The notes below the pieces were generated by a model. That model was not told where the DNA came from. It saw only the letters and a list, made by a program, of their open reading frames with translations, and ran no database searches. Shown in pieces: positions 438-43,746 of a stretch of 64,000 nucleotides of DNA. The position numbers and the translations under genes are program-made. Each line of letters starts with the position of its first letter. The stretch's first letter is position 1. The stretch covers positions 186,001 through 250,000 of the forward strand of contig CANJYB010000002.1 of NCBI GenBank assembly GCA_947479085.1. Reading direction: 5' to 3'. The stretch comes from Bacteroidota bacterium. Lineage in GTDB: Bacteria > Bacteroidota > Bacteroidia > 2-12-FULL-35-15.

Positions 438-656
438 GTTTGTTTAATTATGAATTATGAGTTATAAATTATGAATTAAGTTTCGGAGGCAAAAATATTG
501 TTTTTTGGGGTAGGATAAGCAAAAAAGTAATCTTATTTTATCAACACCCCCATTAAAAAGAATAAAATAATGAAAAAATGGTATAAATATTTAAGATGAA
601 GGTAAAAAAAAGGGGGGTGGCAATATTTTTGTTGAAAAATGTTCACTTCTTAAGGT

Positions 657-17924: not shown

Positions 17925-17943
17925 CCTTTTATTGTTTCTTTTT

Positions 17944-17971
17944 AACTATTAACTATTAACTATTAACTATT
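17944..17971. repeat. Short tandem repeat, 4 x 7 bp
   Basis: Four exact copies of AACTATT lie in the 56-bp gap between the sigma54 activator gene and lptE. A slippage-prone microsatellite upstream of lptE. Confidence 0.8.
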
Positions 17972-17980
17972 TGCTATTGC

Positions 17981-39638: not shown

Positions 39639-41417
39639 CTAAAAACAATATTTATTTTCAGTAATCAATTTAGCAGCAACAGTTCTGCGGGCTTCAACAG
39701 AATTAAATGCATCAACTTTAGTAAATCTTTTCAGCCCAGTCAACATCATTCGTTGTTCATCTCCGGAAGCAAAATAATTAATGGATTCTTTTCCTGATTT
39801 ATGAATATTGTCTGATGCATCGTTAAGGTAAATCCGCATCATGGCTATTTGCTCCTTACAGGCTTCTTCACCTTTCATTCCTGTTAATTTTTCAACACGT
39901 AACAGAACCGATTCTGCAACATATAGTTCAATCATCATATCCGCTATACTCATCAATACTTCCTGTTCTTTCGCTAATGTCTGCATTAATTTTTGAACTG
40001 CGGCACCCGCTACCATCAATATAGCTTTCTTGAAATTGGATATATAGCTTTTTTCTTTGGAGAACAACGCATCATCTGGAGATTCCATGGAAGGAATGCT
40101 CATTAACTCAGCCGCTACTTTCTGCGCAGGCCCCATCAAATCCAGTTCACCTTTCATAGCACGTTTCAACATCATGTCCATAATCAACATTCGGTTGATT
40201 TCATTTGTCCCTTCAAAAATTCTATTAATACGAGCATCACGATAAGCTCTGTCCATAGGAGCTTCAGCGCTGTATCCCATTCCGCCATAAATCTGAACAC
40301 CTTCATCCACCACATAATCCAATACCTCCGAGCCATGTACTTTTAAAATAGCTGCTTCCACAGCAAACTGTTCCACGCCTTTTAATTTAGCCTTTGCCTC
40401 ATCCATTCCGCCTGCAATTAATGCCTTAATAGCGTCTTCAATATTCTGACTGGCTCTGTATATTGCAGATTCACTGGCATAAATGCGGGTAGCCTGTTCA
40501 GCTAATTTATAACGAATAGCACCATATTTTGAAATAGGCCTACCAAACTGGTTACGTTCATTTGCATATTCCACTGCTTTGGTAACAGTCACTTTACTTC
40601 CACCAATAGCCGCACCAGCCAGTTTTATACGGCCCAGATTTAAAATGTTAACTGCTATTTTAAAACCATTTTGTCTTTCTGATAAAAGGTTCTCCACAGG
40701 CACTTTGCATTCATTAAAAAAAACCTGCCTTGTCGAACTGCCTTTAATACCCATTTTATGCTCTTCAGGATTTAAAGAAATTCCTCCGAATGTTTTCTCG
40801 ACAATAAAAGCAGACAAGTTTGTGTCATCATCTATTTTTGCAAACACTGTGAATATATCAGCAAAACCGCCATTGGTAATCCACATTTTTTGTCCGTTCA
40901 GGATATAATGTTTCCCATCTGCAGATAAGACTGCTTTTGTTTTCCCTGAATTAGCATCCGATCCGGAACCTGGTTCTGTAAGGCAATAGCACGCTTTCCA
41001 CTCACCACTTGCCAGTTTTGGAATGTATTTAGCCTTCTGCTCTGCATTTCCATAATATAAAATTGGTAAAGTTCCTATTCCTGTATGAGCAGAAATGGCT
41101 ACCGCAAATGAATGACCGGCTCCAAGTATTTCTGTAGCAAGCATGGAAGTCGTAAAATCTTTTCCAAAGCCGCCATATTCTTCAGGAACAGAAATACCCA
41201 ATAAGCCAAGCTCTCCGGCTTTATCCAAAAGACCCGGCATAAATCCTTCTTCCTGTGAATCAATCCGGTCGAGGTTGTTCCAAACATTCTGTGCAAGGAA
41301 ATCATGACAGGTCCCCGCTATTAATTGTTGTTCTTCATTCCATTCTTCCGGAATAAAAATATCTTTTGCTTCTGTTTCTTTAATCAGGAATTCACCTCCT
41401 TTGGTACTTGTGCTCAT
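39639..41417 (-). CDS. Acyl-CoA dehydrogenase (long form, FadE-like)
   Basis: 592 residues. FAD and substrate segments typical of the family: CYCLTEPGSGSDAN, KMWITNGGFADIFTVFAKI, HKMGIKGSSTRQVFFNECKVP, QIYGGMGYSAEAPMDRAYRDARINRIFEGTNEINR. A C-terminal extension of about 170 residues makes it the long type, as in VLCAD-like enzymes. It oxidises acyl-CoA to enoyl-CoA with electrons to ETF. It is the last gene of the beta-oxidation unit, separated from the thiolase gene by the S23 cassette. Confidence 0.95.
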   Translation of the reverse strand: MSTSTKGGEFLIKETEAKDIFIPEEWNEEQQLIAGTCHDFLAQNVWNNLDRIDSQEEGFMPGLLDKAGELGLLGISVPEEYGGFGKDFTTSMLATEILGAGHSFAVAISAHTGIGTLPILYYGNAEQKAKYIPKLASGEWKACYCLTEPGSGSDANSGKTKAVLSADGKHYILNGQKMWITNGGFADIFTVFAKIDDDTNLSAFIVEKTFGGISLNPEEHKMGIKGSSTRQVFFNECKVPVENLLSERQNGFKIAVNILNLGRIKLAGAAIGGSKVTVTKAVEYANERNQFGRPISKYGAIRYKLAEQATRIYASESAIYRASQNIEDAIKALIAGGMDEAKAKLKGVEQFAVEAAILKVHGSEVLDYVVDEGVQIYGGMGYSAEAPMDRAYRDARINRIFEGTNEINRMLIMDMMLKRAMKGELDLMGPAQKVAAELMSIPSMESPDDALFSKEKSYISNFKKAILMVAGAAVQKLMQTLAKEQEVLMSIADMMIELYVAESVLLRVEKLTGMKGEEACKEQIAMMRIYLNDASDNIHKSGKESINYFASGDEQRMMLTGLKRFTKVDAFNSVEARRTVAAKLITENKYCF

Positions 41418-41423
41418 AATGTT

Positions 41424-41854
41424 GGATATTAGATGTTAGATATTGGATGTTAAATTAATTGCTTTCTCAAAGTTGATATTAATGAATTAATCATTCTTTC
41501 TAGTTTATTAATAGTAAGAGTAAAGATCTCTAAATCTTCTTTTGTTATATAAGTGAATTCAAACGCTAAAATCATTTGTGTTTCAAGTTCGAAACAAGAG
41601 CCAATTGCAATATTAAGAAATTGTGTAAAGTCTTTATTACTATTTCTCCCTGCTCCTTCTGCAATATTTGATGGTATCGAAACCGCTGCTCTATTCATTT
41701 GAGATGTTAAACCGTACATTTCGGAAGAAGGAAATACTTTGGTTAGATTATATGTCAATTTAGTTATTTCCATTGCCTCTTGCCAAATTTTCAATTCTCT
41801 AAAATTATGCATACTGTTCTCTTTTTAATATCCAATGCCTAAAATCTAATATCC
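41424..41854. mobile_element. Inverted-repeat-bounded cassette carrying an S23 gene
   Basis: Arm 41424-41453 (begins GGATATTAGATGTTAG) and arm 41825-41854 match in 26 of 30 positions in inverted orientation. They enclose just the 120-residue four-helix-bundle gene; the left arm covers its stop codon. The right arm ends 2 bp before the thiolase stop and the left arm lies 6 bp before the dehydrogenase start, so the cassette fills the intergenic gap exactly. No transposase is present. Interpretation as a mobilised unit is inference. Confidence 0.45.
41450..41812 (-). CDS. Four-helix-bundle protein (S23 / 23S rRNA-intervening-sequence family)
   Basis: 120 residues. Pattern HNFRELKIWQEAMEITKLTYNLTKVFPSSEMYGLTSQMNRAAVSIPSNIAEGAGRNSNKDF is diagnostic for the S23/IVS protein family. 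Members were first found in intervening sequences of 23S rRNA genes and are common as isolated genes in Bacteroidota; their activity is unknown. They are structurally akin to Avd accessory proteins of diversity-generating retroelements, but no reverse transcriptase is here. It is enclosed by a 30-bp inverted repeat and sits between thiolase and dehydrogenase genes. Confidence 0.93.
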   Translation of the reverse strand: MHNFRELKIWQEAMEITKLTYNLTKVFPSSEMYGLTSQMNRAAVSIPSNIAEGAGRNSNKDFTQFLNIAIGSCFELETQMILAFEFTYITKEDLEIFTLTINKLERMINSLISTLRKQLI

Positions 41855-41856
41855 GG

Positions 41857-43032
41857 CTAAAGGATTTCAAAAACACCTGCAGCACCTTGCCCGGTGCCAA
41901 CACACATGGAAACAATTCCGTATTTTTTATTTCTTCTTTTTAATTCATTAAATAACTGAACAGACAATTTAGCACCGGTGCAACCCAATGGATGCCCCAG
42001 AGAAATAGCTCCGCCATTTACATTTACAATTTCCTGGTTCAAATTTAATTCCCTGCAAACCGCTAATGATTGAGAAGCGAAGGCCTCGTTCAATTCTATT
42101 AAATCAATTTGATTCAAACTCATTCCGGCTAATTTTAATGCCTTTGGAATAGCCACAATTGGACCTATTCCCATTATGCGGGGAGGAACTCCTGCTGCTG
42201 CAAAACTTACCATTCTTGCAATTGGTTTCAGGTTGTTTTCTTTCAGAAATTTTTCTGATACTACCATTACAAATGCTGCCCCATCACTTGTTTGGGAGGA
42301 GTTTCCGGCTGTAACACTTCCTTTCGCATCAAACACCGGTTTTAACTTAGCCAGCGCATCCAATGTGGTATCGGCTCTAGGTCCTTCATCCGTATCAACA
42401 ATAAAATCTTTGGTCTTTTTCTTTTCATCAACATCCACAAAGGTTTCAGAAACTTTTATCGGAACGATTTCTTCTTTGAATTTACCTTCTTTAATGGCTT
42501 TGATGGCTTTCTGATGGGAGTTTAATGAAAACGCATCCTGGTCCTCCCTGCTCACTTTATATTCTGTTGCTACCGCTTCTGCCGTTAGTCCCATGCCCCA
42601 GTAGTGGTCGGGGTGAGCCAATGCCACGCCTGAATGAGGAACAATTCTCCATCCCCCCATAGGTATTAAACTCATGCTCTCAGCACCACCGGCAATAATA
42701 CAATCGGCCATACCTGCATGTATTTTTGCGGAAGCAATAGAAATGGTTTCCAGTCCTGATGCACAATAACGATTTACGGTTACTCCTGCTATCTTATCAG
42801 AATTAAATGCCATCAGCGAAATTAATCGAGCCATATTTAACCCTTGTTCTGCTTCCGGCATTGCATTACCTACTATCAAATCATCCACCTGTTCAGGGGC
42901 AATATTTGGAACTGAAGCCATCAAATGCTTTATTACATCTGACGCTAAGTCATCTGGCCTTGTGAATCTAAATCCTCCTCGGTTGGCTTTACCAACTGCT
43001 GTACGAAAACCTGCTACTATGTATGCGTTCAT
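41857..43032 (-). CDS. Acetyl-CoA acyltransferase (thiolase, FadA-like)
   Basis: 391 residues. Nucleophile Cys in VNRYCASGLETISIA (near 90), second active-site region GGAISLGHPLGCTGAK (near 345) and the final SMCVGTGQGAAGVFE (near 380). It cleaves 3-ketoacyl-CoA to acetyl-CoA and a shortened acyl-CoA. Located downstream of the FadB-like gene with a toxin-antitoxin pair between them; the gap to hepT is only 10 bp, so all are probably on one message. Confidence 0.95.
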   Translation of the reverse strand: MNAYIVAGFRTAVGKANRGGFRFTRPDDLASDVIKHLMASVPNIAPEQVDDLIVGNAMPEAEQGLNMARLISLMAFNSDKIAGVTVNRYCASGLETISIASAKIHAGMADCIIAGGAESMSLIPMGGWRIVPHSGVALAHPDHYWGMGLTAEAVATEYKVSREDQDAFSLNSHQKAIKAIKEGKFKEEIVPIKVSETFVDVDEKKKTKDFIVDTDEGPRADTTLDALAKLKPVFDAKGSVTAGNSSQTSDGAAFVMVVSEKFLKENNLKPIARMVSFAAAGVPPRIMGIGPIVAIPKALKLAGMSLNQIDLIELNEAFASQSLAVCRELNLNQEIVNVNGGAISLGHPLGCTGAKLSVQLFNELKRRNKKYGIVSMCVGTGQGAAGVFEIL

Positions 43033-43042
43033 TGTTTTTAGT

Positions 43043-43456
43043 TTATTCAGTAATCTTTTCTAAAACTATCTTCATTAATTCTAAATGTTGAGGAAGGCGT
43101 TTGTAAACTTCTTCAAAATAATTTTCGTTGTAAATATGGCTTAATATGTTTCGATCATCAACTAAGCGAATTAACTTTTCAAATTGCTGTTCGTTTATGT
43201 AATTATTTTTAAAAAGTTCCCTGTAAATACTTTTTGGTGATGCAATTATTATCCCATGCTTTTCGGACAACAACACTTTAGTTGTTTTCCATAATAATTC
43301 CGAACAATATTCAAATTTCTGAATCTGTCCATTTTTAACTACATCAGAAATTATTTCCGTAAACGAAAATAAATCTATTTTCATTGCTTCAGAAAATCCT
43401 TTCACGGCTTTCTGCAGTTCAGCTATTTTACTGTTATATTTTTCGGGCAATTCCAT
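43043..43456 (-). CDS. hepT: HepT-like HEPN protein (nucleotidyltransferase substrate-binding family)
   Basis: 137 residues, all-helical. The HEPN ribonuclease motif RX4HXY is present at Arg102, His107, Tyr109 (DDRNILSHIY). Family HI0074. In known pairs the HEPN protein is the toxic RNase and is inactivated by AMPylation of its Tyr by the MNT partner. It overlaps the partner gene by 34 bp. Inserted between the FadB-like and thiolase genes. Confidence 0.85.
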   Translation of the reverse strand: MELPEKYNSKIAELQKAVKGFSEAMKIDLFSFTEIISDVVKNGQIQKFEYCSELLWKTTKVLLSEKHGIIIASPKSIYRELFKNNYINEQQFEKLIRLVDDRNILSHIYNENYFEEVYKRLPQHLELMKIVLEKITE

Positions 43457-43746
43457 ATCATTATATGTTCTAAAGCAATTTCTCTGAAATCAGGAGATAC
43501 TTTTTTAAAATCAATTAAATCAACAGTGTAAGGAATAATAGATTCTTCCAATTCATCTTCAATAGTTGACTTAATCATTATTGGTAATTCTTTCTCGCCC
43601 ATAAATCCAATATCAATATCCGATGTTCTGTTATATTTTCCATTTGCCCTTGACCCGAATAAAAACACAGCAAAATCATCCTTTGGAACATATTTTAAAA
43701 TAATTTCCTTTGCAATTTTAAGGTATTTTGTTTCCGGTGAAATCAT
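43423..43746 (-). CDS. mntA: MntA-like minimal nucleotidyltransferase antitoxin
   Basis: 107 residues. The nucleotidyltransferase motif GSX10DXD is intact (Gly31-Ser32, Asp43, Asp45 in FLFGSRANGKYNRTSDIDI), followed by a third acidic region VDLIDF. It probably adds AMP to the HepT partner. It starts 3 bp after the stop of the FadB-like gene, so expression is tied to the beta-oxidation message unless an internal promoter exists. Confidence 0.85.
   Translation of the reverse strand: MISPETKYLKIAKEIILKYVPKDDFAVFLFGSRANGKYNRTSDIDIGFMGEKELPIMIKSTIEDELEESIIPYTVDLIDFKKVSPDFREIALEHIMIWNCPKNITVK

Follow-up and report, generated by a model that had tools for sequence, protein, structure and literature searches.

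A heptamer-flanked S23 gene in a fad operon as a probable copy of an IVS-like mobile element

The stretch of DNA analyzed here (the window; 64,000 nucleotides of a Bacteroidota contig) carries within a fad operon an S23 gene that is bounded by two inward-facing arrays of RGATRTT heptamers (Table 1). This cassette is probably one copy of a widespread IVS-like mobile element that resides in operon gaps and consists of an S23 gene between two arrays that face inward, each built from a private heptamer repeated about four to five times. The S23 ORF matches PF05635 with an E value of 1.8e-40 (137.9 bits, Pfam profile search), and its protein has relatives of solved structure in 2gsc and 2rld. A domain search of the cassette returned PF05635 alone and no transposase; S23 contains no catalytic domain, and no Y1 gene adjoins the cassette in the window. 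The arms are 31 nt each and complementary at 27 of 31 positions. Their best 25-nt stretch is matched at 22 positions, compared with a maximum of 19 in 1000 shuffles, none of which equalled it. Each arm is composed of four tandem heptamers facing inward (GGATATT, AGATGTT, AGATATT and GGATGTT), i.e. (RGATRTT)4, and S23 is the only ORF that is enclosed. Thus the inverted repeat that the initial annotation had described around S23 is real, and so is the tight spacing to the neighbouring operon genes. In the predicted RNA fold the arms pair as a terminal stem around the S23 ORF (-87.9 kcal/mol, z -3.66); an Rfam search of positions 41300-42000 matched no known RNA family. The same operon also harbors a HepT-like / nucleotidyltransferase (MNT) pair of the toxin-antitoxin type (43043-43746, minus strand), which is located between the 3-hydroxyacyl-CoA dehydrogenase and thiolase genes.

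Table 1. Coordinates of the S23 cassette, its neighbours and further heptamer runs in the window.
Feature	Position	Strand	Match or type
S23 / 23S_rRNA_IVP four-helix-bundle gene, intact, 120 aa	41450..41812	-	PF05635
Arm on S23 3' side, four exact RGATRTT heptamers, inward on + strand	41424..41454	.	inverted repeat
Arm on S23 5' side, degenerate RGATRTT heptamers, inward on - strand	41824..41854	.	inverted repeat
Thiolase gene, upstream in operon, stop 2 bp from arm	41857..43032	-	Pfam thiolase domains
Acyl-CoA dehydrogenase gene, downstream in operon, start 6 bp from arm	39639..41417	-	Pfam acyl-CoA dehydrogenase domains
Array-only heptamer run, like arms of another own-genome S23 gene (L004)	446..478	.	
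Array-only heptamer run (TTAACTA)n, no clear own-genome S23 match	17942..17978	.	

Eight PF05635 matches were found in the source genome, seven above the cut-off and one below. Each of the seven has a flank repeat word of its own, as read by eye: RGATRTT, AAAGTCC, TAGGCAA, AGTTATG, AATTATT and AGGGACG types, plus one 8-mer (ACCGATGT/ACCGATTT). The eighth match has no obvious flank word. Identical arms on the other S23 genes of this genome, which the initial annotation had proposed to look for, do not occur, as these genes have different arms. S23 genes are present in 57 of 59 relatives with up to 19 copies, and their flanks show the same pattern with many different words. One relative harbors three S23 genes with differing words (L063, L175 and L165) within 4 kb of one cluster (G044:C2:45151-48915).

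The same anatomy is found across phyla. An independent set of 80 named S23 loci, many of them from MAGs, comprised Bacteroidota, Acidobacteriota, Ignavibacteriota, Bacillota, Nitrospirota, Omnitrophota and others, with phylum labels that were taken from NCBI record titles and are possibly wrong in places. Inverted period-7 arms were located at 43 of 78 S23 genes in this set versus 10 of 180 neighbouring control genes (P 3e-18); direct repeats and lags of 6, 8 and 10 show no excess. At the threshold applied, about 45% of the named loci lack clear inverted arms. In a self-match test of 76 loci from the relatives, a lag of 7 or 14 was best in 46 of the 5' flanks and 45 of the 3' flanks, an excess that is missing from shuffled and far-flank controls. 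Comparison of the 5' flank with the reverse complement of the 3' flank gave a median of 36 at the same locus and 17 between loci. In 134 arrays the G-rich strand points to the gene and in 20 it points away; the arrays have a median length of 4.4 units (IQR 3.9-5.0). Between the two arms, the order of units agrees weakly (42/70, P 0.009, a small effect), so that selection on exact arm pairing is hardly supported; on the same test, the idea that one arm is an exact inverted duplication of the other was dismissed. Arms with a period of 8 nt were seen in one S23 protein clade (L006, L152, L153, L154, L158, L159 and L186). S23 genes on cyanobacterial plasmids have arms of the types AGGGAAC, TAGGGAG and GGGTGTA and are set in cas/Cmr, transfer and other clusters. 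LSU was not found at any of 18 S23 loci that are non-Bacteroidota or unplaced, and no S23 cassette was confirmed in viral contigs.

Judged by the sequences, each S23 lineage has its own arm word, and arm type tracks the protein rather than the site. Pairs of S23 genes at different sites have similar arms in about 1-4% of cases when the protein score is below 0.5 and in 71% when it is at least 0.7, and pairs at the same site with a protein score of 0.5-0.6 share arms in 11%. At the thiolase/dehydrogenase junction, one clade (L001, L052) carries RGATRTT on both sides of the gene, and the next S23 clade (L040, L041) carries RGTATCA on both sides. On the protein tree, the 7-nt and 8-nt periods are clustered, with nine changes versus 17.5 after shuffling (0/500 as low), on a tree of few columns and with near-copies that inflate such clustering.

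Gene and arms move as a unit. This is indicated by four pairs of related S23 genes at different sites (L145/L176, L072/L076, L147/L216 and L222/L216), in which the alignment spans the gene with its arms at 74-75% DNA identity and ends there, the flanks being unrelated. One S23 lineage was also located in two adjacent junctions of a suf-like operon in different genomes (L139 versus L076 and L140), an operon whose gene names were assigned from sequence. Empty thiolase/dehydrogenase junctions, another expectation of the initial annotation, are present in close relatives (L109, L113, L121 and L128), and three further junctions contain arrays without S23 (L119, L124 and L126). No target duplication was seen, and the empty junctions are too diverged for comparison. 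The proposal of a mobile cassette with terminal inverted repeats is thus supported for the mobility of gene plus arms, by the different-site pairs and the empty junctions, but not for the nature of the ends, which are short-period tandem arrays and not unique transposon ends. The trans-mobilization that the initial annotation suggested may take place. Plain transposon ends were accordingly discarded, since the arms consist of tandem heptamers and vary from one S23 gene to another within a genome. At the same junction, decaying S23 genes with persisting arms were observed in G005 (L146, in-frame stop) and G007 (L117, shortened and broken). CCTCCC/GGGAGG-rich intercistronic elements occupy this junction in L116, L127, L129 and L131, where S23 is missing.

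Arrays of the cassette's own type are dispersed in the source genome. Two adjacent exact RGATRTT units occur 38 times versus 0 for the reversed pattern, mostly without S23. The initial annotation had regarded the occurrence of arms without S23, as general intergenic repeats, as contrary to its proposal, and such copies do exist as dispersed intergenic arrays. Several of these array-only copies are short inward-facing pairs (C5, C8, C16 and C18); opposite-strand neighbours face inward, and by eye no close outward pair was found among the matches listed. Most of the sampled arrays are intergenic and many lie directly 3' of a stop codon. Chimeric arrays of the source genome (L205:13705-13739, L207:11221-11282 and L210:18719-18792) switch words with the 7-nt register kept, e.g. 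from AGATGTT to AGTTGTT, and look as if words evolve or get replaced inside an array.

The density of period-7 arrays was compared in five genomes, which is a small sample. It amounts to 20 per Mb in the source genome (eight S23 genes, unbiased sampled stretches) and 25 per Mb in G035 (19 S23 genes, sampled stretches). No such arrays were found in 400 kb of G054 (no S23), 192 kb of G025 (no S23, partly masked) and 384 kb of G024 (one S23). In the two S23-rich genomes, arrays are closer to the S23 arms of their own genome than to those of other genomes in 9/10 and 5/5 cases (P 0.007 and 0.03). RGTTGTT arrays are plentiful in two genomes (G015, G034) and RGATRTT arrays in two others (G002, G032), and no S23 with exactly the corresponding arms was found in any of the four. 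This indicates that the coupling between arrays and S23 is not strict. RGTTGTT was set aside as a second test of this linkage: counts are high in two genomes without cognate S23, and the test is not clean because the reversed control is a related word.

The S23 protein, whose relatives of solved structure are pentamers, probably recognizes its own heptamers. Binding would take place on single-stranded RNA or DNA, perhaps with one heptamer unit per subunit. As to the chemistry of transposition, we infer that the transcribed arms would form a paired stem and that RNase III would cut this stem, as it does in the 23S rRNA IVS; strand transfer may come from a host enzyme. The gaps between operon genes would form the niche of the element because a cut there does little harm, and array-only copies would have arisen by deletion or by spreading in trans.

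Three other explanations have to be weighed against such an element. An unlikely one is that S23 is a sequence-specific RNA-binding regulator like TRAP, with autoregulatory arms, the dispersed arrays as its regulon, and movement as an incidental feature. The tracking of the S23 protein by the arm type is in line with this, as are the location of arrays in intergenic gaps, many directly after a stop codon, and an array length that suits a pentamer. However, two inverted arms would be superfluous for an RNA regulator, whereas S23 genes as a rule have inverted pairs. Furthermore, S23 is found in many unrelated operons, gene and arms move together, and S23 copies decay, none of which favors a regulator. 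Somewhat less probable again is that the arrays are mobilized by an enzyme of the host or of another mobile element, e.g. a Y1 transposase with hairpin substrates, and that S23 is cargo or an accessory. S23 and Y1 counts correlate over 59 genomes (rho 0.43, P 0.0007), but S23 count is equally correlated with genome size (rho 0.44), and G044 harbors 12 S23 genes without a Y1 match. A Y1 transposase is thus not strictly required. Reverse transcriptase is absent from 17 of the 30 genomes with at least five S23 genes; it was therefore rejected as a partner, and a reverse transcriptase of standard type is not required. In addition, a lineage-by-lineage match to the arms is not expected of cargo.

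The origin of the arrays by polymerase slippage, with S23 genes merely adjacent, was already disfavored and is very improbable. Slippage has been proposed for heptamers, which are over-represented in many bacteria (Rehm et al., PMC4692102), and some arrays are without cognate S23, as would be expected. Nevertheless, slippage does not account for one word in opposite orientation on both flanks of one S23 gene, for a word that follows the protein across sites, or for the lack of arrays in the samples of genomes with no or one S23 gene.

The mobile-element reading can be extended to a broader proposal, which is put forward tentatively as a possibility somewhat short of probable. S23/IVP genes may represent a bacteria-wide class of minimal mobile elements with private terminal arrays of heptamers or octamers, which the encoded pentamer would recognize. 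The 23S IVS and many heptameric repeats (Xanthomonas GGGAATC, cyanobacterial STRRs) would then be special cases or debris, with protein and heptamer coevolving as the two sides of a recognition code. A single answer may exist to two long-standing questions, namely what S23 proteins do and why bacteria have an excess of 7-letter tandem repeats. Since each heptamer word accompanies its protein lineage, such a code should be readable from natural data. The proposal would also account for the occurrence of S23 genes in operons unrelated to each other, such as cas loci, where they are listed among CRISPR-associated functions (PMC3936711).

The cassette resembles REP sequences with their RAYT transposases and MITEs, which likewise have dispersed palindromic copies of which fewer bear a gene. 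In contrast to these, S23 is no transposase and the ends are tandem heptamers, and no target duplication was evident against the much diverged empty junctions; unlike in REP/RAYT systems, no Y1 transposase lies beside the cassette, and the 12 S23 genes of G044 occur without one. The Avd accessory protein of diversity-generating retroelements is a related protein, also a pentameric four-helix bundle, whose action involves nucleic acid. Unlike in Avd systems, no RVT_1 reverse transcriptase was found in the source genome or in the S23-rich G035.

The G-rich heptameric repeats of Xanthomonas and Nostoc have a period of 7, prefer about four units and are intergenic (Rehm et al. 2015, PMC4692102). 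In Xanthomonas 70-75 convergent pairs occur, close behind the upstream ORF, and few pairs are present in Nostoc (PMC4692102). The arms in the window share with these repeats the number of about four units, the convergent pairing and the intergenic location, whereas the unit RGATRTT differs from GGGAATC and GGGGAYT. One word per genome was studied by Rehm et al., and no linked gene was reported (PMC4692102). The Nostoc word GGGGAYT gave one match, and no repeats, in the cyanobacterial S23 plasmids. The closest solved S23 structure is XCC0516 of X. campestris, deposited with five chains and, according to a title cited in PMC3936711, consisting of five four-helix bundles. This gene is predicted to have GGGAATC arms. 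In a search of the open-access literature, with subscription papers outside its scope, no paper tying S23 genes generally to heptamers was found.

The closest parallel is the 23S rRNA IVS of Coxiella burnetii, which is about 430 nt long, has 28-bp terminal repeats, encodes S23p and is cut by RNase III within its stem (PMC4990558). Directly 5' of the S23p ORF it contains tandem GACAGAT heptamers in variable number (PMC4990558). The window cassette is likewise about 430 nt long, with an S23 ORF in terminal inverted repeats of about 28-31 bp and tandem heptamers. It differs in that it is located in a protein operon, flanked by thiolase and dehydrogenase genes instead of a 23S rRNA gene, that its stem is a predicted one, and that heptamer arms are here a family-wide feature. 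The published Coxiella data agree with the S23-heptamer anatomy described here.
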